64,000 bases of DNA from Haloarcula salina (GTDB taxonomy: Archaea; Halobacteriota; Halobacteria; Halobacteriales; Haloarculaceae), in NCBI RefSeq assembly GCF_010119195.1, contig NZ_WRXL01000008.1, forward strand, positions 62,001 through 126,000, in the 5' to 3' direction. Position 1 is the first letter of the stretch. Every line of letters starts with the position of its first letter. The notes below the pieces were generated by a model. The model had not been told where the DNA came from. It ran no database searches and saw only the letters and a program-made list of their open reading frames with translations. This document shows, in pieces, positions 19,797-34,010 of the stretch. The position numbers and the translations under genes are program-made.

Positions 19797-20882
19797 TTAG
19801 CTCTCCTCAGTAGTTATCGTGTCTATAATGCCGTCCGCAATGTCGTCGATCGGTAACACCGAGTCGACACAGCCCGTCTCGACGGCGCGTTTGGGCATCC
19901 CGTACACCGCGGACGTGGCCTCGTCCTGTGCGATGGTGCTGCCGCCGGCCGCCTTGATGCGCCGGATACCGTCCGCCCCGTCCTCGCCCATCCCCGTGAG
20001 GATGAGTCCGACGAGGGGGTCGTCGATCGTCTCCGCGGCGGTCTCCATCGTCACGTCGACCGCCGGTCGGACGCTGTTGACCGGTGCGTCCTCGGTCAGT
20101 CGAGCCCGAAGTCGCCCGTTCCGGTAGTTCTTGACCCGCATGTGCCGGTCGCCCGCGGCGACGAGTCCTTCGCCGCCGCCGATGCGCGCCCCGTCGGTCG
20201 CCTCGCTGACCTCGTACTCGCTTCGAGCGTTGATCCGCTCGGCGAAGCGCCCGGTGAATCCCTCGGGCATGTGCTGGACGATGAGCACGCGGAGGTCGGC
20301 CGCCGCGGGCAGGTTCTGCATCACCGTCTCGACCATCTTCGGACCGCCGGTCGAGGAGCCGACGACGAGCGTCGGGTTCTCGACGTAGGTGTCGCCGGCA
20401 CCGGCCGACGTCGATGACTGGGTCGTCGCCGTCCGTTCGGACCCCGTCGAGGATCGCTTGGCCTTGCCCGCCGCGGTCACGTCGACCGCCGCGACGGAGA
20501 CGACCATCTCCACCAGCTGGTCTTTCAGTCTGGACATCTCCATCGACACCTCGCCGCCGGGCTTCGTGAAGAAGTCGACCGCGCCCTTATCGAGCGCCTC
20601 GAAAGTCACGTCCGCGTTCTCGTCGGTGTGGGCCGACAGCATCAACACCGGCGTCGGTCGCTCGGCCATGATGCGTTCCGTGGCCTCGATGCCGTTCATC
20701 ACCGGCATCTCGACGTCCATCGTCACGGCGTCCGGTTCGTGTTCGATGACGGCCTCGACCGCGTTCTCCCCGTCGCGCGCCTGTGCGACGACGTCGATTC
20801 CCCCGTCGTCGAGGATATCGGAGATGACGCTCCGCATAAAGTGGGAATCGTCTGCGACCACGGCGCGGACACCACCTACCAT
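19797..20882 (-). CDS. cheB: Chemotaxis protein-glutamate methylesterase/deamidase CheB
   Basis: A 361-residue CheB with an N-terminal receiver (acidic DD at 11-12, phosphoacceptor Asp56 in TMDVEMPVMNG). A linker of about 40 residues rich in Ser/Thr follows, then the esterase domain. The catalytic triad is Ser177 in GSSTGGP, His204 in VQHMPEGF and Asp301 in MGEDGADG. It is the first gene of the minus-strand array cheB-cheA-cheR-HEAT-cheF. Its promoter (TATA-like ATTTATT, read on the minus strand near 20971-20963) lies 13 bases from the operator-like site at 20984, which also faces cheW. Confidence 0.97.
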   Translation of the reverse strand: MVGGVRAVVADDSHFMRSVISDILDDGGIDVVAQARDGENAVEAVIEHEPDAVTMDVEMPVMNGIEATERIMAERPTPVLMLSAHTDENADVTFEALDKGAVDFFTKPGGEVSMEMSRLKDQLVEMVVSVAAVDVTAAGKAKRSSTGSERTATTQSSTSAGAGDTYVENPTLVVGSSTGGPKMVETVMQNLPAAADLRVLIVQHMPEGFTGRFAERINARSEYEVSEATDGARIGGGEGLVAAGDRHMRVKNYRNGRLRARLTEDAPVNSVRPAVDVTMETAAETIDDPLVGLILTGMGEDGADGIRRIKAAGGSTIAQDEATSAVYGMPKRAVETGCVDSVLPIDDIADGIIDTITTEES

Positions 20883-20983
20883 GTCACTGACGCTCCCGGG
20901 ACGCGGGGCGCACCAGCGAACGAGACATCCTCATACCTACCTCGAAATCCCGTTCGGCCCCGAAATAAATACTCCGCCCACGT

Positions 20984-20997
20984 AATCAAAGTTGATA
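20984..20997. promoter_or_regulatory. Operator-like site AATC-N6-GATA between divergent cheB and cheW promoters
   Basis: The site is AATCAAAGTTGATA, one base from the palindrome TATC-N6-GATA found at six other motility promoters. It lies about 13 bases from the cheB TATA-like box (minus strand, near 20971-20963) and about 15 bases from the cheW TATA-like box (CTTTATG, near 21011). That is the same spacing as at the other promoters. One site could therefore serve both directions. Confidence 0.55.
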
Positions 20998-21051
20998 GCC
21001 CAGGAGGCAGCTTTATGCGCTCCTGTCCGAGACAGACGAACCAAGAGTTCT

Positions 21052-21486
21052 ATGTCAGCCCAGTCAGCCACGACCGGCCAGGTGCTCGAGTTCCAGCTCG
21101 GGTCCGAGACGTACTGCGTGAGCATCGATTACGTCACCGAAATCGTCGACGTAGGGGAGCTCACCGCCGTCCCGAACGCGCCGCCCCACGTCCGGGGCGT
21201 CATGGACCTCCGCGGGCGCACGACGTCTATCGTCGACCCGAAGGTCGTCTTCGGCATCGAGGACGAGGGCGCGGAGAAGCGCATCATCGTTTTCGACCCT
21301 GATATCGTCGAGGACCAGGGCGCGGCCGGCTGGCTCGTCGACGAGGTGTACCAGGTGGTTCAGGTCACCCCGGACCAGGTGGATCAGTCGCCCGCGAACG
21401 ACACCGGCTCGATCCGCGGCGTCGTCAAGCGCGACGAGAGTTTCGTCATCTGGGTCGACCCCGCGATCGTCCACGCCGGGAACTGA
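21052..21486 (+). CDS. cheW: Chemotaxis coupling protein CheW
   Basis: A 144-residue CheW domain: VLEFQLGSETYCVSIDYVTEIVDV at the N-terminus, PNAPPHVRGVMDLRGRTTSIVD with the conserved arginine and glycine motif, and a C-terminal GSIRGVVKRDESFVIWVDP strand. It couples transducers to CheA. It is divergent from cheB, and the start at 21052 follows a TATA-like CTTTATG by about 35 bases. Confidence 0.95.
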   Translation: MSAQSATTGQVLEFQLGSETYCVSIDYVTEIVDVGELTAVPNAPPHVRGVMDLRGRTTSIVDPKVVFGIEDEGAEKRIIVFDPDIVEDQGAAGWLVDEVYQVVQVTPDQVDQSPANDTGSIRGVVKRDESFVIWVDPAIVHAGN

Positions 21487-21641
21487 ACCGAACTGCCGCC
21501 GTCTCGGCCCGGCGGTCGTCGGACCGGGCCGACGATCACCGACGACAATCCGTTTGAATCCGGGCGCTGTGGCAGGATACCAGCAAGACTTTTTAACATT
21601 CCCGACTGAAAAGTATCTAATCGACTAGCTGACTCTGACCT

Positions 21642-22367
21642 ATGATAGAGCAAACCAAGACGGGGATCGAAGGCCTCGACGACATTCTGAACGGGGGCAT
21701 TGTCAAGAATTCGACGACACTGGTGAGCGGCAATCCGGGCGCTGGGAAGTCCATTCTCTGTCTCCAGTACATCTACAACGGCGTCGAGCAGTTCGACGAG
21801 AAGGGGATCTACCTCTCGTTCGAGGAGGACGAAGAAGACCTCCGCGAGGCCGCCGAGTCGATCGGCTTCGAGAAGTGGGGCGAGTTCGTCGACAACGGCG
21901 ACATCAAGATCTACGACAAGCAGGTCTTGCTGCGCGAGAACGACTTCACCTCCTCCCTCGACATCCTCCTCGAAGAACTGGAGGAGGGGGACTACGACCG
22001 ACTCGTGCTCGACTCCCTCGCCATGTTCGCGCTGTTCTTCGAGAACGAGAAGGAGAAGCGGACCTACCTCCTGAAGTTCACCGACATCCTCAGCGACAGC
22101 GGCCTCACCACGCTGATGACGAACGAGCAGGGGGCCGTCTTCCCGGACACCGAGATCGGACTGGAGAACTACCTGACCGACGGCAACATCTACCTCATCC
22201 AGACGCCGACCGAGAACGGCGTCAGCCGATACGTGTGGGTCGCGAAGATGCGAAAGCAGAACATCGAGACGGACATCTATCCGATGGAGATCGATGCGGG
22301 CGGCATCAAGGTCCACCAGAACGCGAGCGCTTTCTCGATGATGAGCGAGGAAGAATCCCCGATCTAA
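21642..22367 (+). CDS. KaiC-like RecA-superfamily ATPase (single domain)
   Basis: A 241-residue single KaiC/RAD55-type domain: TGIEGLDDILNGGI at the N-terminus, Walker A SGNPGAGKS with Lys36, and Walker B YDRLVLDSLA. Catalytic glutamates occur in SFEEDEED. It lies between cheW and the winged-helix gene inside the motility locus. KaiC-like (Cir) proteins are known in haloarchaea, and one has been linked to archaellum expression in Haloferax. A regulatory rather than structural role is therefore plausible, but this is inference. It is distinct from arlH at 33252. The AT-rich TTTTTAACATT near 21590 may be its promoter. Confidence 0.85.
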   Translation: MIEQTKTGIEGLDDILNGGIVKNSTTLVSGNPGAGKSILCLQYIYNGVEQFDEKGIYLSFEEDEEDLREAAESIGFEKWGEFVDNGDIKIYDKQVLLRENDFTSSLDILLEELEEGDYDRLVLDSLAMFALFFENEKEKRTYLLKFTDILSDSGLTTLMTNEQGAVFPDTEIGLENYLTDGNIYLIQTPTENGVSRYVWVAKMRKQNIETDIYPMEIDAGGIKVHQNASAFSMMSEEESPI

Positions 22368-22472
22368 GGGCGGAATAACTCGTTATTATTGCGGATAACG
22401 TCGGGTACAGGTACCGTACCTGACGTATCTCGGTCCTCTGTTCGTAAGTGCTTTACCCCGGTCGATCCCCGA

Positions 22473-22486
22473 TATCACAGGCGATA
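22473..22486. promoter_or_regulatory. Palindromic operator TATC-N6-GATA, winged-helix gene promoter
   Basis: The site reads TATCACAGGCGATA, immediately before a TATA-like TTTATTA at 22489-22495. The box is 27-33 bases from the ATG at 22522, so the mRNA is nearly leaderless. A weaker match (TATTATTGCGGATA, one mismatch) lies at 22384-22397. Binding here would overlap the BRE/TATA region and so probably repress. Confidence 0.7.
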
Positions 22487-22521
22487 GCTTTATTATCGAC
22501 AGAATTTATGTTTTGATAACG

Positions 22522-22857
22522 ATGGCTTCAGGGGAGATTCTTCAGACGCTTGGCAATAAATACAGCGCCGAAATCCTCGATGCGACGGACGAACCCGTGT
22601 CCGCGCAGGAACTCAGCGACGATCTCGGGATTCCCATCGCGACGTGTTATCGTCGCATCGACGAGCTCACCGAACACGACCTGCTCGAACTCCACGACAA
22701 CATCCTCTCCGACGACCGCCGACGGATCAAGGTATACCGTCGGAACGTCGACGAAGTGCGCGTCGACTTCGACGACGAACTGACCGTTCACGTGGAGGAG
22801 CGGTCCGAGGTGACGAACAAGCTCGACGAGGCCTGGCGGACCCTCTCCGAGCGGTAA
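22522..22857 (+). CDS. Winged-helix (ArsR-like) transcription regulator of the motility locus
   Basis: A 111-residue winged-helix protein: ILQTLGNKYSAEILDATDEPVSAQELSDDLGIPIATCYRRIDELTEHDLLEL is a classic helix-turn-helix followed by a wing (DDRRRIKVYRR). The C-terminal part would allow dimerisation. The ATG at 22522 is used; a TTG three codons earlier is not needed. Its promoter carries the palindrome shared with archaellin, cheY and arlCE promoters, so it is the best candidate for the protein that binds it. It recalls EarA, the archaellum activator of Methanococcus, in size and context, but orthology is not shown. Confidence 0.85.
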   Translation: MASGEILQTLGNKYSAEILDATDEPVSAQELSDDLGIPIATCYRRIDELTEHDLLELHDNILSDDRRRIKVYRRNVDEVRVDFDDELTVHVEERSEVTNKLDEAWRTLSER

Positions 22858-22875
22858 CGTCCCGTCTCCTGTCGT

Positions 22876-22889
22876 TATCAGCGGCGATA
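22876..22889. promoter_or_regulatory. Palindromic operator TATC-N6-GATA, small membrane protein promoter
   Basis: The site reads TATCAGCGGCGATA and is followed after 13 bases by the TATA-like ATTTAATAA (22902-22910). The ATG of the small membrane protein is at 22941. The spacing to the TATA box matches that at the archaellin promoters. Confidence 0.7.
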
Positions 22890-22940
22890 TTTTCGTGCAT
22901 GGATTTAATAACGGGATCGGTGTAGGCCCGGATAGTGCAG

Positions 22941-23216
22941 ATGATAGAACTTCTCTATGCCATCTCGACGCTGGTGTTCGTCGTGGCCGGACTGACGATG
23001 GTCGGGATGGCGATGCGGGCGTACGTCCAGACATCCCGGCAGGCGATGCTCCACCTCTCGGTTGGGTTCTCGCTCGCGATCGCGGGGGCGGCCGCCACGA
23101 TGATCAGTGCGTTCATAAACGACTTCCAGGGAGTCCGGTCCCTCCTGCTGGTGAACAGCGGCCTGACCACGTTTGGGTACCTGTTCGTCATGTACAGCCT
23201 CGTCACCTACGAGTAG
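22941..23216 (+). CDS. Small three-helix membrane protein of the motility locus
   Basis: A 91-residue protein that is almost entirely three transmembrane helices (IELLYAISTLVFVVAGLTMVG, LHLSVGFSLAIAGAAATMISAF and LLLVNSGLTTFGYLFVMYSLV). It resembles small halobacterial membrane proteins often encoded beside HTH regulators (possibly DUF7521, from memory). The ATG at 22941 is preferred over a GTG at 22935. It carries its own TATC-N6-GATA promoter site, so it is predicted to be co-regulated with archaellins. A sensor or membrane tether for the adjacent winged-helix protein is possible but unproven. Confidence 0.75.
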   Translation: MIELLYAISTLVFVVAGLTMVGMAMRAYVQTSRQAMLHLSVGFSLAIAGAAATMISAFINDFQGVRSLLLVNSGLTTFGYLFVMYSLVTYE

Positions 23217-23456
23217 CGTCCGGCCAGTCCGACCGACACACCAGTGGCGGATTCTCTTTTGCACCTGTCTCTGTGAGTTCGTCTGTTCTCCAGTCGCGTC
23301 GGTGACCGAGCGCGCGTCTGCTCGCGAGGAGACCGGTTTCCGATTCAGTGCTGATACCGATTGTCTCGTCTTTCTCGATTATGAACTTCGGTGATCGGGG
23401 CTGTCTCGATTTACCGCTGTCCGACCGAAGTAGCGTCCTAGGCCCCTCTACCGCCC
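23217..23456. other. Intergenic region before the first archaellin
   Basis: About 240 bases (the gap reaches 325 if the promoter to 23541 is counted). No credible gene, tRNA or repeat is seen here. The block shared with the second archaellin begins abruptly at 23446. Confidence 0.5.
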
Positions 23457-23532
23457 GTTATCACGGTCGATAACTCGGGGAGAGGTATTATTACCCGTGA
23501 AAGAATCGGTATCGGTAGGGTCAGACAGACCC
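23457..23532 (+). promoter_or_regulatory. arlA1 promoter: operator palindrome, TATA box, leader hairpin
   Basis: GTTATC-N6-GATAAC (core TATC-N6-GATA at 23459-23472) is followed after 12 bases by the TATA-like GTATTATTA (about 23485-23493). That predicts a start near 23515-23520. The leader then contains GGGTC-AGACA-GACCC (23518-23532), a 5-base-pair hairpin ending nine bases before the ATG. The whole block is repeated at the second archaellin. Confidence 0.75.
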
Positions 23533-23541
23533 GGATAACCA

Positions 23542-24153
23542 ATGTTAACGGAACTCACGAACGACGACGACCGCGGGCAGGTCGGTATCGGCACGCTGAT
23601 CGTGTTCATCGCGATGGTGCTGGTGGCCGCAATCGCCGCGGGCGTCCTGATCAACACGGCCGGCTTCCTCCAGAGCAGCGCCGAGGAGACCGGACAACAG
23701 AGCAGCGACCAGGTGACCAATCGACTCCAGCTCGTCAACGCCGTCGGTGAAGACATCAACGACAACGGCGTACAGACGGTGAACCTGACGGTCAAGCGCG
23801 CGCCCGGTGCGGCGAACATCGACATCGGGAGCACGATCGCGCAGTGGGTCGACTCCTCCGGGTCCTACGATCTGACCGTCGACGACAACAACCCGAAAAC
23901 GTCCGACAACGACAACTTCGGCGTCACGGAAGTGCAGGACGATGACGGCTCTATCTCGGATAGCCAGGTGCTGAACGATCCAGCCGACCGCGCGCGACTG
24001 GAATTCAGTGCTGAGGCTATCCGCGGCGGGAGTAATCCGCTGCCCGAGGGTGCGACGGGGACGGTTCGCCTGAACACTCAGTCCGGTGGGACGACGACCG
24101 TGCGCCTGGTCGTTCCGGAGACTCTGTCTGGTAACTCCGCCGTCAGCCTCTAA
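23542..24153 (+). CDS. arlA1: Archaellin (archaellum filament subunit) 1
   Basis: A 203-residue archaellin. The class III signal peptide ends at DDRGQ, with cleavage by PibD/ArlK before [15 protein letters not shown]. The long hydrophobic helix that follows forms the filament core. One N-glycosylation sequon is visible in TVNLTVKR. The C-terminal [19 protein letters not shown] is typical. It is almost identical to the gene at 24425 except around the variable outer-domain loop, after SYDLTVD. Both genes carry identical promoters with an operator-like palindrome. Confidence 0.97.
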
Positions 24154-24328
24154 GCTTCGACGACCACTGATTTCTGCGTCGCTCTTTTTGCTTCTTTCGC
24201 TCATCACGAACGACCACGCTCTGCCGTCCCAATACCGCTGAGCGGACGTCTTCCGTTGTCGCTCGATGTGCTCTCGAATCGTTCCAACACGGAAAATACG
24301 AGACAGACGATAAAGGCTCCAAAACACT

Positions 24329-24424
24329 CTCTACCGCCCGTTATCACGGTCGATAACTCGGGGAGAGGTATTATTACCCGTGAAAGAATCGGTATCGGTA
24401 GGGTCAGACAGACCCGGATAACCA
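24329..24424 (+). promoter_or_regulatory. arlA2 promoter: exact copy of the arlA1 upstream block
   Basis: From 24329 to the start codon the sequence repeats 23446-23541 base for base as far as I can see. It includes the palindrome (core 24342-24355), the TATA-like GTATTATTA and the leader hairpin (24401-24415). The repeat continues into the gene, so the duplication unit is about 883 bases. Confidence 0.8.
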
Positions 24425-25042
24425 ATGCTAACGGAACTCACGAACGACGACGACCGCGGGCAGGTCGGTATCGGCACGCTGATCGTGTTCATCGCGATGG
24501 TGCTGGTGGCCGCAATCGCCGCGGGCGTCCTGATCAACACGGCCGGCTTCCTCCAGAGCAGCGCCGAGGAGACCGGACAACAGAGCAGCGACCAGGTGAC
24601 CAATCGACTCCAGCTCGTCAACGCCGTCGGTGAAGACATCAGCAATAACGGTATCCAGACGGTGAACCTGACGGTCAAGCGCGCGCCCGGTGCGGCGAAC
24701 ATCGACATCGGGAGCACGATCGCGCAGTGGGTCGACTCCTCCGGGTCCTACGATCTGACCGTCGATACCGACAATAACCAGCCGAAGTTATCCGATGCTG
24801 ATCATTTCGGTGTCACGGAAGTGCAGGACGATGACGGCTCTATCTCGGATAGCCAGGTACTGAACGATCCGTCTGATCGCGCGCGACTGGAGTTCAGTGC
24901 TGAAGACATCCGCGGCGGGAGTAATCCGCTGCCCGAGGGTGCGACGGCAACGATCCGTCTGAACACCCAGTCAGGTGGGACGACGACCGTGCGCCTGGTC
25001 GTTCCGGAGACTCTGTCTGGTAATTCCGCCGTCAGCCTCTAA
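24425..25042 (+). CDS. arlA2: Archaellin (archaellum filament subunit) 2
   Basis: A 205-residue archaellin, tandem copy of arlA1. It has the same signal peptide with the DDRGQ processing site, the same core helix and the same C-terminus. Differences cluster in two patches: DINDNGVQ to DISNNGIQ, and [13 protein letters not shown] to [15 protein letters not shown], plus a few substitutions later. That mosaic pattern suggests gene conversion between the copies. Its stop is followed by a T-rich stretch (CTTTCCTTTTCTT near 25050), a possible transcription end. Confidence 0.97.
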
Positions 25043-25119
25043 GTTCGCTTTCCTTTTCTTGACGCTCTCTCAGCTCGAACGGCGACGGAGTTATACCACT
25101 TCCTCACACAGTACGACGT

Positions 25120-25689
25120 ATGGCTCGGCGGTCAGACGAACCGAATCCGGAAGAAGGCAAGGTACTCTCGCCCGAGGAGCTCGACATCGCCGACGACGAG
25201 CACGTCACCGAGATCGACGAGGGCCGCTACGTCGTCTCCTCGGACGTCCGCACCGACGACTCCTACGGGAACCAGATCCCGTCGGATTCGGCGTCAGACC
25301 CGTCGGAGTCGTCCTCGGGGAACCCGCCCGAACCCGAGTTCACCGACGCGAACGTCCATCAGTGGCTCGCCGAACAGATGGCGGACTCGAACGCTCGGTA
25401 CGGGTTCGACGTGACCGCCAAGTTCGACGGGGAGGTCGACCAGCAACAGTTGGTCTCCAACGACATCGTCACCGTCTTCGAGAGCTTCATGCTCTGGTAC
25501 GGTCGGCAGATGGACGGCTCGACCGCGGTCGAGGACGTTCTCGGAATCCTGCTTTCGGAGTCGAACGTCCCGGTCCGGTATCCGCCGGGGGCCGTGAGAG
25601 AACTCGTCAAGTCGACGCAGCTCTCGCCCGACGACTCCATCGCGGACCTGTTGCACGCGGTCGAAGACGACGACGGCGTCCAGTTCTGA
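25120..25689 (+). CDS. Uncharacterised acidic protein of the archaellum locus
   Basis: A 189-residue acidic soluble protein. The N-terminus contains EGKVLSPEELDIADDEHV and EGRYVVSSD, a motif I recall from small haloarchaeal proteins often placed near archaellins (possibly DUF7500, unverified). A disordered Ser/Pro/Glu linker follows, then a helical C-terminal domain (VHQWLAEQMADSNARYGFDV...FESFMLWYGRQMDG). No catalytic motif is seen. It follows arlA2 by 77 bases and precedes two more unknown genes. A role in archaellum function is suggested only by position. Confidence 0.75.
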   Translation: MARRSDEPNPEEGKVLSPEELDIADDEHVTEIDEGRYVVSSDVRTDDSYGNQIPSDSASDPSESSSGNPPEPEFTDANVHQWLAEQMADSNARYGFDVTAKFDGEVDQQQLVSNDIVTVFESFMLWYGRQMDGSTAVEDVLGILLSESNVPVRYPPGAVRELVKSTQLSPDDSIADLLHAVEDDDGVQF

Positions 25690-25735
25690 CCGGCGAGAGA
25701 TTTAACTGCGGCCACGGCGGTTGGTGGGGTAGCTG

Positions 25736-26212
25736 ATGGACCGCTTCGAGCCACAGACCGTCACGGCCCTGTTCGTTCTGGCGACGCTCGTCGCCACCGG
25801 ACCGCTCGTCGGCGTCGGCGCGTTCGAGCCGCGGGCCACGACCATCGGCGACGGGACCGCCTCCGTCGGGGGCGTTCACGTGGACACGACCCAGTTTCGG
25901 GTCACCGACGGCCGCTTCGGAACCGCGGTTCCGTACCTCAGAGTCCCGGACGCGTCCGTCACCGTGGACGCCGTGACGGGGCGTCCCAGACTGCTGTACC
26001 AGATTTCGATTCCCCGTCTGGACGCTTCGATGACATCCGAACGCGTGTTCTCGACGGCCGGGACGTACCGACTCGCCCCGGGTGATCGGGCGCTGGAGCC
26101 CTCTTCGGTCGGCCGGGAGCGATACAACGGGACCGTGCGAATCACCGTCCAGAGCTTCGAAGCGACCGAGACGGTGTACGACGAGAACGTCACCGTGGCG
26201 GTGATCGAATGA
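25736..26212 (+). CDS. Uncharacterised membrane-anchored or secreted protein
   Basis: A 158-residue protein with an N-terminal hydrophobic segment (VTALFVLATLVATGPLVGVGAF, residues 8-29) that is either a signal peptide or an anchor. A beta-rich extracellular part with an N-glycosylation sequon in YNGTV follows. It overlaps the large membrane-protein gene downstream by four bases (ATGA), so the two are translationally coupled and likely form a unit. No known family recognised. Confidence 0.72.
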   Translation: MDRFEPQTVTALFVLATLVATGPLVGVGAFEPRATTIGDGTASVGGVHVDTTQFRVTDGRFGTAVPYLRVPDASVTVDAVTGRPRLLYQISIPRLDASMTSERVFSTAGTYRLAPGDRALEPSSVGRERYNGTVRITVQSFEATETVYDENVTVAVIE

Positions 26213-28281: not shown

Positions 28282-28295
28282 TATCACACGCGATA
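28282..28295. promoter_or_regulatory. Palindromic operator TATC-N6-GATA, cheY operon promoter
   Basis: The site reads TATCACACGCGATA and is followed after about 14 bases by the TATA-like CTTTATCTAA (28309-28318). The cheY ATG is at 28347. The half-sites and the initial A of the spacer agree with the archaellin sites. Confidence 0.72.
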
Positions 28296-30646: not shown

Positions 30647-30660
30647 TATCAGATATGATA
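30647..30660. promoter_or_regulatory. Palindromic operator TATC-N6-GATA, arlCE operon promoter
   Basis: The site reads TATCAGATATGATA, a nearly perfect inverted repeat over its whole length. It is followed after ten bases by a TATA-like AATATTG (30671-30677). The ATG of arlCE at 30707 is 30 bases further, so the operon mRNA has a very short leader. Confidence 0.72.
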
Positions 30661-30706: not shown

Positions 30707-32386
30707 ATGAGTAGTCTCGCTCTCGAGCCGCTGGCCGCAGCCGTCTCGCCGGTACTGGTCGGGCTGGCACCCGTCCTCTTCGTTCTCCTGACGGGCGGGC
30801 TGGTCGGCATGAGCATCAAGAACATGTTCGACTCGATTCTGTCGGACGACGAGAGCGAGAACGGGAGTGACGGGAACGACGAGATGGCCGACGGGGGCGG
30901 CGGACTGATGGCCGACGACGGCGGTGACGGCGGCGACGACTTCGGCGGCCTCGGCGGCCTCGACGACGACGATGACATGGGCGGGTTCGGCGACGACGAC
31001 TTCGGCGACATGGAGGACGCGAGCGGTCCGGACACCGACGAGCTCGAACACCGGCTCGACGAGCTGGAAAACGAGGTCGGCAGCCTCTCCTCGACGGTCA
31101 ACACGGTCCGGACCGAGAACGAGAGCATCTCCGAATCGGTCGAAGAGACGGAGGAGAACGTCCGGAAACTGCTCGACATCTACGAGATGGTCACCCGCGG
31201 CGTCAACCCCTTCGCCGACGACGTCGACGGGGGCATGGGCGGTATGGGCGAGGGCGGTGGCTCCTTCGGGCTGTTCGACGACGGCGGCGACGAACCGGAG
31301 GAGGACATCGACGACGACGTCGCCAACGCCGACGCCGAAGGCTTCTTCGACGAGGACCTCACTGAGGGCGCTGGCGGCGACATGGGGATGGGTGACAGTA
31401 TGGACATGGACGACGGCAGCGTCGACGACGTGTTCCCGGACGAGGGGGACGACATGGGCGGCTTCGAGGACGACGGCGGGTCCTTCGACGAGGAGTTCGA
31501 CGACTTCGACGACGCGGGAGACGATGACATGAGTATGGATGACGGGATGAGCATGGACGACGCGAGCACCGACGACGGAGACAGCGACGACGGCGAGGGC
31601 GGCAAGTCCTTCGCCGAACTCAAAGACGAGTACGAGTCCGGCGACGCCGAGTGGGCCGAGGGCGACGAGGAAGCCGACGCCGACGAGGACGAGTTCGAGG
31701 ACGACGGCGACCTGCTGGCCGACGACGACGGGGAGTTGTTGGCCGAGGACGACGGCGACGAGGACGCGCTCGCAGACGACGACCTCTTCGACGAGGTCAT
31801 CGAGGACGACGGGGCCGACGGCGACGGTCTGGCAGACGACGGGGCCGACGCGGGTTCCGAATCCGTCACCGAGCCAGAGCCGGAACCCGAGCCCGAACCG
31901 GTCGCCGAACCGGAACCCGAGCCAGAGCCGGAACCCGAGCCAGAACCGGTCGCAGAGCCAGAGCCCGAGCCCGAACCGGACACAGAGTCCACCGACACCG
32001 GTTCCGCGGCAACTGGCGACGACGCCGAGACGACGGACGGCGATGGGGGGAAGCCGTACCTGTCGACGATGCCCGAAGGGTTCGCGGCGGACCTCATCAT
32101 CGTCGAGTGGCTGGAGTACCTGGTCCAGAACTCCGGGTACCGCGAGACGGCCCGCGCCATCGACTACTACGAGACGATCGACTGGATCGACGAGTCCGTC
32201 GCGGACCAACTCAAGGAGTACCTCCGCGGCTTCGACGGCGTGGACGACACCGGAGCGGGGCTCTCTATCGACCACCACACGGAGAGCTTGCGATACATCT
32301 CGCAGCTGGACGGCGACAGCGGTGCCGACGCCGTCATGCTCTCGAAACTGGTCGGCGGAGGTGGTTCCGATGGGCTTCAGCGTTAG
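30707..32386 (+). CDS. arlCE: Archaellar switch-complex protein ArlCE (FlaCE fusion)
   Basis: A 559-residue fusion typical of haloarchaea. An N-terminal membrane helix (AVSPVLVGLAPVLFVLLTGGLVG) is followed by a coiled-coil ArlC domain near residues 108-170 (LEHRLDELENEVGSLSSTVN). A very acidic Asp/Gly/Met region and a Pro-Glu repeat come next, with long runs of EPEP around residues 388-426. The C-terminal ArlD/E domain (YLSTMPEGFAADLIIVEWLEYLV) closes the protein. It forms the cytoplasmic ring that receives Che signals through CheF. It overlaps arlF by 17 bases and heads arlCE-F-G-H-I-J. Confidence 0.93.
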   Translation: MSSLALEPLAAAVSPVLVGLAPVLFVLLTGGLVGMSIKNMFDSILSDDESENGSDGNDEMADGGGGLMADDGGDGGDDFGGLGGLDDDDDMGGFGDDDFGDMEDASGPDTDELEHRLDELENEVGSLSSTVNTVRTENESISESVEETEENVRKLLDIYEMVTRGVNPFADDVDGGMGGMGEGGGSFGLFDDGGDEPEEDIDDDVANADAEGFFDEDLTEGAGGDMGMGDSMDMDDGSVDDVFPDEGDDMGGFEDDGGSFDEEFDDFDDAGDDDMSMDDGMSMDDASTDDGDSDDGEGGKSFAELKDEYESGDAEWAEGDEEADADEDEFEDDGDLLADDDGELLAEDDGDEDALADDDLFDEVIEDDGADGDGLADDGADAGSESVTEPEPEPEPEPVAEPEPEPEPEPEPEPVAEPEPEPEPDTESTDTGSAATGDDAETTDGDGGKPYLSTMPEGFAADLIIVEWLEYLVQNSGYRETARAIDYYETIDWIDESVADQLKEYLRGFDGVDDTGAGLSIDHHTESLRYISQLDGDSGADAVMLSKLVGGGGSDGLQR

Positions 32387-32808: not shown

Positions 32809-33255
32809 ATGGCGAGCGTCTCCGTCTCGCACCTGATCCTGTTCATCGCGTCGATGGCCATCGCGGCGAGCGTCGCCGGCGTGTTCACGAGCAGCATCGG
32901 CGAACTCAGCAACGCCGTCTCCGAGCAGGGCCTCGACGTGAGCAGCGAGGTCCGGAGCGACGTCGAGATCATCTCCGACGGCGGGAGCGACGCGATCTAC
33001 GACAGCGGCACGATCACGCTCTACGTGAAAAACACCGGGTCGGAGACGCTCGCGCCGGTCCCCGGACAGCTGGACGTCTTCGTGGACGGCCAGTTCGCCA
33101 CCGAGTACACGGTGACGCTCGAACCGAACGGCGGCGACTCCTGGCGGGCCGGCGACGTGGTCCGCCTCGAGATCAGCCAGAGCCTCAGCGGCGGTGATCA
33201 CCGCGTCATGATCATCGTCAACGGCGACGAGGAGGTGTTCGAGTTCAACCTATGA
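32809..33255 (+). CDS. arlG: Archaellar stator protein ArlG
   Basis: A 148-residue protein: an N-terminal archaellin-like hydrophobic helix ([22 protein letters not shown]), then an Ig-like beta domain ([26 protein letters not shown]). It partners ArlF in the periplasmic stator. It overlaps arlH by four bases. Confidence 0.93.
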
Positions 33256-34010
33256 GCATCGCAAGCACCGACCTGTTCTCGCTCGGACTGGACGACCACG
33301 ACCGACTGAACAAGGAACTGGGCGGCGGTATCCCACCCGGCAGTATCATCCTCGTCGAGGGCGACTACGGGGCCGGCAAGTCCGCCATGAGCCAGCGGTT
33401 CACCTACGGCCTCTGCGAGGAAGGCCACGAGGTGACGTACCTCTCGACGGAGCTCACCGTCGGGAGCTTCCTCGACCAGATGCACTCGCTGTCCTACGAC
33501 ATGGTCGACCACATCCTCGACGAGAACGTGCTGTTCCTGCACGCCGACATCGGCGAATCGAACGCCCTCACCGGCGGCGAGCAGAAAGAGCGCAAGGAAC
33601 TGCTCAAGCGGCTCATGGAGGCCGAGGTGATGTGGGAGGCCGACGTCATCGTCATCGACACGTTCGACGCCATCCTCCGGAACGACCCCAAGTTCGAGGC
33701 CCTGGTCCGGCAGAACGAGGAGCGCCAGGCCGCCCTCGAGGTCATCTCCTACTTCCGGGACGTGATCTCCCAGGGCAAGTGCATCATGCTCACCGTCGAC
33801 CCGTCGACGCTGGACGAGGAGGCGATCGGCCCGTTCCGGGCGATCGCTGACGTGTTCATCGAACTGGAGATGATCGAGGTCGGCAACGACGTGCGCCGGC
33901 AGATCAACGTCCTCCGCTTTGCCGGCATGGGCGAACAGGTGGGTGACACCGTCGGGTTCTCCGTGCGCTCGGGGACCGGCATCGTCATCGAATCGCGGAG
34001 CGTCGCATAG
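33252..34010 (+). CDS. arlH: Archaellar ATPase-like regulator ArlH
   Basis: A 252-residue RecA/KaiC-family protein. Walker A is [10 protein letters not shown] (Lys43), Walker B is VIVIDTFDA, and it has HTYLSTE-like and [20 protein letters not shown] elements typical of ArlH. ArlH binds ATP, associates with ArlI and regulates motor assembly. Its start overlaps arlG by four bases; arlI begins 14 bases after the stop. Confidence 0.95.

Follow-up and report, generated by a model that had tools for sequence, protein, structure and literature searches.

Three genes of the Haloarcula salina contig NZ_WRXL01000008.1 stand in a row between cheW and the archaellin genes, and they raise the question of what a KaiC-like ATPase, a winged-helix protein and a small membrane protein do together at an archaellum locus. 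The original prediction saw in them a local signalling circuit governing archaellum expression. Our analysis of the window, which is the whole stretch of 64,000 nucleotides around these genes, showed that the block is the Haloarcula-type version of the haloarchaeal CirA/CsmR switch of swimming and cell shape. CirA and CsmR, two thirds of the block, are already known from Haloferax volcanii phenotypes; the new element is the small DUF7521 membrane protein next to CsmR, under a CsmR-type DNA site. The three genes are intact, lie on one strand between the end of cheW (21486) and the start of arlA1 (23542), and encode what had been proposed from the letters alone: a KaiC-like ATPase, a 111-residue winged-helix protein and a 91-residue three-helix protein, on which the Pfam matches (PF06745, PF12840 and PF24365) and an AlphaFold2 model agree. 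The genes are as follows (window coordinates).

21052..21486, plus strand: cheW, upstream neighbour and CsmR-box target, start near 21052 (PF01584, 1.2e-27)
21642..22367, plus strand: cirA orthologue, single-domain KaiC-like ATPase, 241 aa (PF06745 KaiC, 1.1e-49)
22522..22857, plus strand: csmR orthologue, winged-helix transcription factor, 111 aa (PF12840 HTH_20, 3.2e-12)
22941..23216, plus strand: DUF7521 three-helix membrane protein, 91 aa, proposed CsmR partner (PF24365, 7.2e-8)
23542..24153, plus strand: archaellin arlA1, a target (PF01917, 2.6e-37)
24425..25042, plus strand: archaellin arlA2, a target (PF01917 match at 24458-24994, in genome coordinates G000:C13:86458-86994)

The winged-helix and KaiC genes are, judged by sequence and predicted fold, orthologues of csmR (hvo_1209) and cirA of H. 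volcanii, which lie beside arlA1 and arlA2 and were described in a June 2026 paper (PMC13286277). The orthology was drawn through a Haloferax-like intermediate (genome G115, locus L239), as H. volcanii itself is outside the named loci. The homologues of this intermediate are 62% (CsmR, best match) and 66% (CirA) identical to those of the window, and its gene order (cirA>, <arlA, <arlA, <csmR) fits the published H. volcanii description. The best fold match of the window CsmR model was Phr (2P4W), the same nearest solved fold as reported for H. volcanii CsmR, which argues for the orthology.

In H. volcanii, deletion of csmR abolished motility, yet arl and che transcripts were raised, while deletion of cirA led to hypermotility and permanent rods; the csmR cirA double mutant resembled the csmR deletion, and overexpression of CsmR by itself increased motility (PMC13286277). 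Promoter binding by CsmR, its effects on motility and cell shape and the genetics of CirA have been shown experimentally in this species only (PMC13286277). Even there, CsmR may be either an activator or a repressor, and the route of environmental signals to CsmR was posed as an open question (PMC13286277). Since deletions of the orthologues alter motility, archaellation and cell shape (PMC13286277), the proposal that the block controls the archaellum was well founded.

The two loci share orthologous winged-helix and KaiC genes beside the archaellins but differ in their arrangement. The Haloarcula order is cheW-cirA-csmR-DUF7521-arlA on one strand, whereas the Haloferax cirA gene is convergent with arlA2 and has an overlapping RNA, hvo_1211s; the convergent layout that hosts this RNA is absent in the Haloarcula window, and no known RNA family was found in 20800-25800 as its counterpart. 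In Haloarcula, DUF7521 adjoins csmR, whereas the Haloferax-like locus showed none next to csmR, and the work on H. volcanii may therefore have missed it.

Judged by CsmR, Haloarcula species are the closest relatives of the window's genome. The triplet was maintained next to archaellins in most of the named Haloarculaceae loci, where the order cheW-CirA-CsmR-DUF7521-arlA-DUF7500 is retained. A CirA gene lay near CsmR in all of the 80 loci retrieved with CsmR and was directly adjacent in nearly all of them (an exception, L106, has CirA at approximately 2.5 kb). CsmR and DUF7521 adjoined in 43 of approximately 80 genomes of the order (manual tally over genomes whose CsmR is at least roughly 46% identical).

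According to a published statement, csmR and archaellins always occur together in Halobacteria, but this was not upheld in our sample. CirA and CsmR were present, with no DUF7521 alongside, in G076, Halolamina rubra and Halolamina salifodinae, whose genomes gave no PF01917 match, and this retention of CirA-CsmR in archaellin-free genomes fits a role in cell shape. Archaellins were present with no close csmR in G043, G051 and G067. At five loci (L108-L110, L112 and L242), CirA and CsmR were found together with no archaellins nearby.

We then examined the palindrome which had been said to be shared by the promoters of the second and third genes, and which was indeed present before both, at 22473-22486 and 22876-22889. 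By its letters, it is the operator TATCA(N4)TGATA found near BRE/TATA as the CsmR ChIP-seq motif of H. volcanii (PMC13286277), and as in H. volcanii it lies upstream of TATA. The window contains seven sites with at most one mismatch to this pattern, against 0.05 expected from Markov-shuffled sequence, and all seven lie in che/arl promoters.

20984..20997, unstranded: CsmR box in the divergent cheB/cheW promoter region (pattern scan and conservation)
22473..22486, unstranded: CsmR box upstream of csmR, TATCACAGGCGATA; TATA (TTTATT) begins 2 nt after
22876..22889, unstranded: CsmR box upstream of DUF7521, TATCAGCGGCGATA; TATA (TTTAATA) begins 14 nt after
23459..23472, unstranded: CsmR box upstream of arlA1 (pattern scan)
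24342..24355, unstranded: CsmR box upstream of arlA2, surrounding sequence as at arlA1 (pattern scan)
28282..28295, unstranded: CsmR box upstream of cheY (pattern scan and conservation)
30647..30660, unstranded: CsmR box without mismatch, before the operon with arlCE (pattern scan and conservation)

The cirA promoter of the window had no site within one mismatch. Genome-wide, 48 sites were found at this threshold against 20 for the reversed pattern, and the presence of seven of these 48 in a cluster of approximately 10 kb is a strong local excess.

Comparison of the 80 named loci showed that the box was kept upstream of cheB (42/47), cheW (43/45), cheY (45/57), arlCE (9/9) and DUF7521 (45/53), while it was found upstream of csmR in 31 of 80 loci and in none of 77 regions upstream of cirA; the shuffled control gave 2/341. 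Upstream of arlA, a box with at most one mismatch was found for 28 of 108 archaellin genes, many of which are downstream tandem copies. At cheB, cheW, DUF7521, arlA and cheY, the TATA hexamer, located with a simple six-base score, mostly began 12-15 nt beyond the box, with a tie at nine DUF7521 loci where a T-run stands at offset 0; the arlCE promoters had a weaker TATA and a less clear phasing. This spacing suggests that CsmR would act next to the BRE at its targets. At csmR, by contrast with Haloferax csmR, the gene in the Haloarcula/Halomicrobium clade has its own box abutting the TATA, which starts 1-2 nt after it (16 loci). Such an arrangement suggests autorepression, and in this clade, to which the autoregulatory box is confined, CsmR may repress itself by occlusion of its own promoter. 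From the phasing of box and TATA, sites of activation by CsmR and sites of possible self-repression can be predicted.

The boxes go with csmR: a Haloferax-like region containing csmR has four, whereas in G043 and G051 (one genus), which have archaellins but lack a close csmR and a close cirA, the 10-12.5 kb around arl/che contained none. The loci of G051 and G043 (L272 and L273), from the same family, have archaellins and che genes with no close CsmR, CirA or archaellum-type DUF7521.

Elsewhere in the window's own genome, boxes with the same phasing were found before genes for an archaellin, MCP-signal, HAMP, HisKA_7TM kinase, FIST and Cache/PAS proteins, and salactin. These distant sites were listed at one mismatch, where approximately 20 of the 48 are expected by chance, so that individual distant targets are predictions. 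Salactin is an actin-like protein (NF053533, 600 bits), and a direct link from CsmR to this shape protein is predicted from a perfect box. This box (G000:C7:214933-214946; L132 1501-1514) lies 46 nt before the salactin gene with a TATA spacing of 12 nt. At a great distance from the main cluster, a third archaellin gene (G000:C8:525161-525787, L190) has its own CsmR-like box. Two further KaiC-family genes (C8:133079-133738, L003, and C8:466244-466909, L004) have one-mismatch CsmR-like boxes close upstream, that of L003 without the usual TATA spacing.

The CirA protein has the PF06745 ATPase core, a Walker A motif and the conserved glutamate pair in common with cyanobacterial KaiC and archaeal ArlH; its own motifs are GNPGAGKS (Walker A), FEE and a Walker-B-like LVLDSL. 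The Walker A glycines and lysine and the FEE residues are invariant in the alignment of CirA orthologues, and the orthologues next to CsmR are 54-93% identical. Unlike cyanobacterial KaiC, CirA consists of one domain, which is CI-like rather than CII-like (99.8 bits to the first domain, CI, of the closest solved KaiC and 46.5 to the second, CII). It is not ArlH, which is a separate gene at 33252-34010. The Ser/Thr phosphorylation pair of KaiC CII falls in an alignment gap and has no aligned counterpart in CirA, which makes a KaiC-type phosphoswitch doubtful. The missing dyad would argue against the phosphotransfer suggested for the H. volcanii protein (PMC13286277), and it bears on the mechanism only, not on the orthology of CirA.

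The third protein was modelled by AlphaFold2 as three helices (2-31, 34-59 and 65-89; pLDDT 94) and scored 33.1 bits against the PF24365 profile (gathering cut-off 27). The conserved stretch RAYxxTxRxAM lies between helices 1 and 2. The three-helix membrane protein of the original prediction was confirmed, while its designation as a sensor remains a guess, as the model consists of three helices and short loops with no extracytoplasmic domain. Comparison of the model with PDB folds gave no significant match, and a literature search on DUF7521, confined to the library at our disposal, found no paper that mentions the family. Kinship with the HisKA_7TM sensors or another known membrane family was considered and rejected, as no Pfam cross-match was convincing; weak DUF5985 matches were obtained for 13 of 35 DUF7521 members (best 3e-4).

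DUF7521 occurs with CsmR-type regulators well beyond the archaellum locus. PF24365 has nine matches in the window's genome, and at all eight of the loci examined the gene directly before it, on the same strand, encodes a CsmR-type winged-helix protein. In 24 genomes of the order, some of whose loci overlap, 78 of 91 DUF7521 occurrences had a CsmR-type neighbour, with a median gap of 42 nt, and in 77 of the 78 this neighbour preceded DUF7521 on the same strand; the same winged-helix profile gave one weak match in 121 kb of other loci. The within-family distances of CsmR and DUF7521 were strongly correlated in 69 pairs (Mantel r 0.79, against a permutation maximum of 0.12), and the correlation persisted when only divergent pairs were used (Mantel r 0.57); these pair statistics rest on DUF7521 matches chosen across one order, kinship ignored, in genomes some of which are drafts. 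Sampled species have roughly 2-10 DUF7521 genes per genome. The CsmR-type and DUF7521 genes thus look like a pair of transcription factor and membrane partner, and we infer both a physical contact between CsmR and DUF7521 and an inhibitory sign of that contact. Same-frame fusions of the two, sought as a direct proof of interaction, were found in 0 of the 91 occurrences. The remaining 13 of 91 had no CsmR-type neighbour. Among these, the upstream ORFs at five loci resembled, as judged by eye, P-type metal ATPases (L160 and L171), a halocyanin (L170) and a bacterio-opsin-activator-like protein (L200 and L209).

The reading that we consider probable is a switch centred on CsmR, which CirA damps and for which DUF7521 is the cognate membrane partner that holds or inactivates CsmR in a feedback loop. 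CsmR would bind next to the BRE, at TATCA(N4)TGATA boxes that stand 12-15 nt before TATA, and would so set the transcription of che, arl and DUF7521, as well as that of genes for motility and shape elsewhere in the genome (archaellin 3, chemoreceptors, a 7TM histidine kinase and salactin), while the box abutting the csmR TATA would make csmR self-limiting in the Haloarcula clade. CirA, as a CI-like KaiC ATPase with a CsmR-independent promoter, would damp the output of CsmR after transcription. DUF7521, itself under CsmR control, would most likely hold or inactivate CsmR at the membrane as a feedback inhibitor or tether, and a signal derived from the membrane would open this loop. A DUF7521 that co-evolves with CsmR and is controlled by a CsmR box is a concrete candidate for the signal input to CsmR. 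Against this reading stand the Haloferax-like, Halonotius and Halobaculum loci, in which CsmR and archaellins occur with no neighbouring DUF7521, so that CsmR can act without the membrane protein. The 13 of 91 DUF7521 genes that lack a CsmR-type neighbour, the opposed effects of the csmR deletion on transcripts and motility in H. volcanii, the restriction of the autoregulatory box to one clade and the presence of arlA boxes at only 28 of 108 archaellin genes also count against it.

The opposite sign, in which DUF7521 is a signal sensor required for switching CsmR on in a positive loop, or delivers it by placing the motility genes or CsmR near the pole, is rather unlikely. The DUF7521 gene belongs to the CsmR regulon, and its archaellum-locus copy usually stands with motility genes (che or arl genes are present at 52 of its 53 loci), which both speak for activation, as does the motility gained in H. 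volcanii by overexpression of CsmR alone, the Haloferax-like locus being without a neighbouring DUF7521. However, CsmR functions without a DUF7521 neighbour in Haloferax-like genomes. In LytTR systems, moreover, the best-studied pairs of regulator and membrane protein, the membrane protein is an inhibitor (PMC6193735).

It is also improbable that only CirA-CsmR forms a real module and that DUF7521, though regulated by CsmR, is a passenger whose role in motility is unrelated, such as the anchoring of a che or arl part in the membrane, and whose neighbourhood is historical. This would account for CirA and CsmR standing together while DUF7521 is absent in the three archaellin-free genomes named above, and for published genetics that ties only CirA and CsmR (PMC13286277). 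Against it, the pairing of DUF7521 with CsmR-type regulators (78/91) and the co-evolution extend outside the motility locus, which is unlike a motility-specific passenger.

A relay in which DUF7521 senses, CirA transduces with ATP and CsmR executes is very improbable, for although the three genes adjoin in Haloarculaceae and some Haloferacaceae-type genomes, there are whole families in which CsmR stands with only CirA or only DUF7521, and cirA lacks a CsmR box at 77 of 77 loci. Adjacency of CsmR and DUF7521 was found in families f1, f4, f10, f11, f12 and f17, and was kept without a neighbouring CirA in f10, f11, f12 and f17, while CirA adjoined CsmR in f1, f4 and f9 and a close CirA homologue was absent from f12 and f17; conversely, Haloferax-like, Halolamina, Halobaculum and Halonotius genomes have retained CirA-CsmR with no DUF7521 next to it. 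The occurrence of each with CsmR alone points to two separate attachments and does not support a linear relay from a membrane sensor via an ATP switch to a DNA-binding output. Of the local circuit, the archaellum control block stood; the single circuit of three proteins did not.

On the preferred reading of DUF7521 as a membrane partner that restrains CsmR, the unit resembles known systems without belonging to them. Like the LytTR regulatory systems HdrRM and BrsRM (PMC6193735), it consists of two genes, for a DNA-binding regulator and an adjacent membrane protein, with operators in its own promoters; however, CsmR is a winged-helix HTH_20 protein and not of the LytTR family, its operators are inverted rather than direct repeats, and DUF7521, whose inhibition of CsmR is only predicted, is unrelated to the LytTR-system membrane proteins. 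In ArnR/ArnR1 of Sulfolobus acidocaldarius (PMC6396743), compared by description, a DNA-binding regulator likewise controls the transcription of archaellins in a membrane-linked manner. ArnR is a single polypeptide bound to the membrane, which acts as an activator and is phosphorylated by ArnC (PMC6396743), whereas in Haloarcula the DNA-binding and membrane parts are encoded by separate genes and none of the 91 DUF7521 occurrences is a same-frame fusion with an HTH. Membership of CsmR-DUF7521 in the LytTR or ArnR class fails on these defining features. We give about even chances to the broader reading that pairs of winged-helix regulator and DUF7521 are a class of membrane signalling systems in haloarchaea that is so far undescribed and does not depend on phosphorylation, and in which the three-helix protein would control its neighbouring regulator and CsmR-DUF7521 would be the archaellum-dedicated member with a membrane input. 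As the pairing recurs at several loci per genome, one result could assign a general role to the uncharacterised DUF7521 family.

Three minor observations concern the surroundings of the block. The promoter regions of arlA1 (23449-23530) and arlA2 (24332-24412) are near-identical, CsmR box included, which suggests a recent tandem duplication of the gene together with its promoter. DUF7500 (PF24332, window 25120-25689) follows the archaellins in most of the related loci and often remains close to them where the cluster is rearranged. The arlCE-type protein (559 aa, window 30707-32386) carries a very long insertion of acidic residues and EP repeats.
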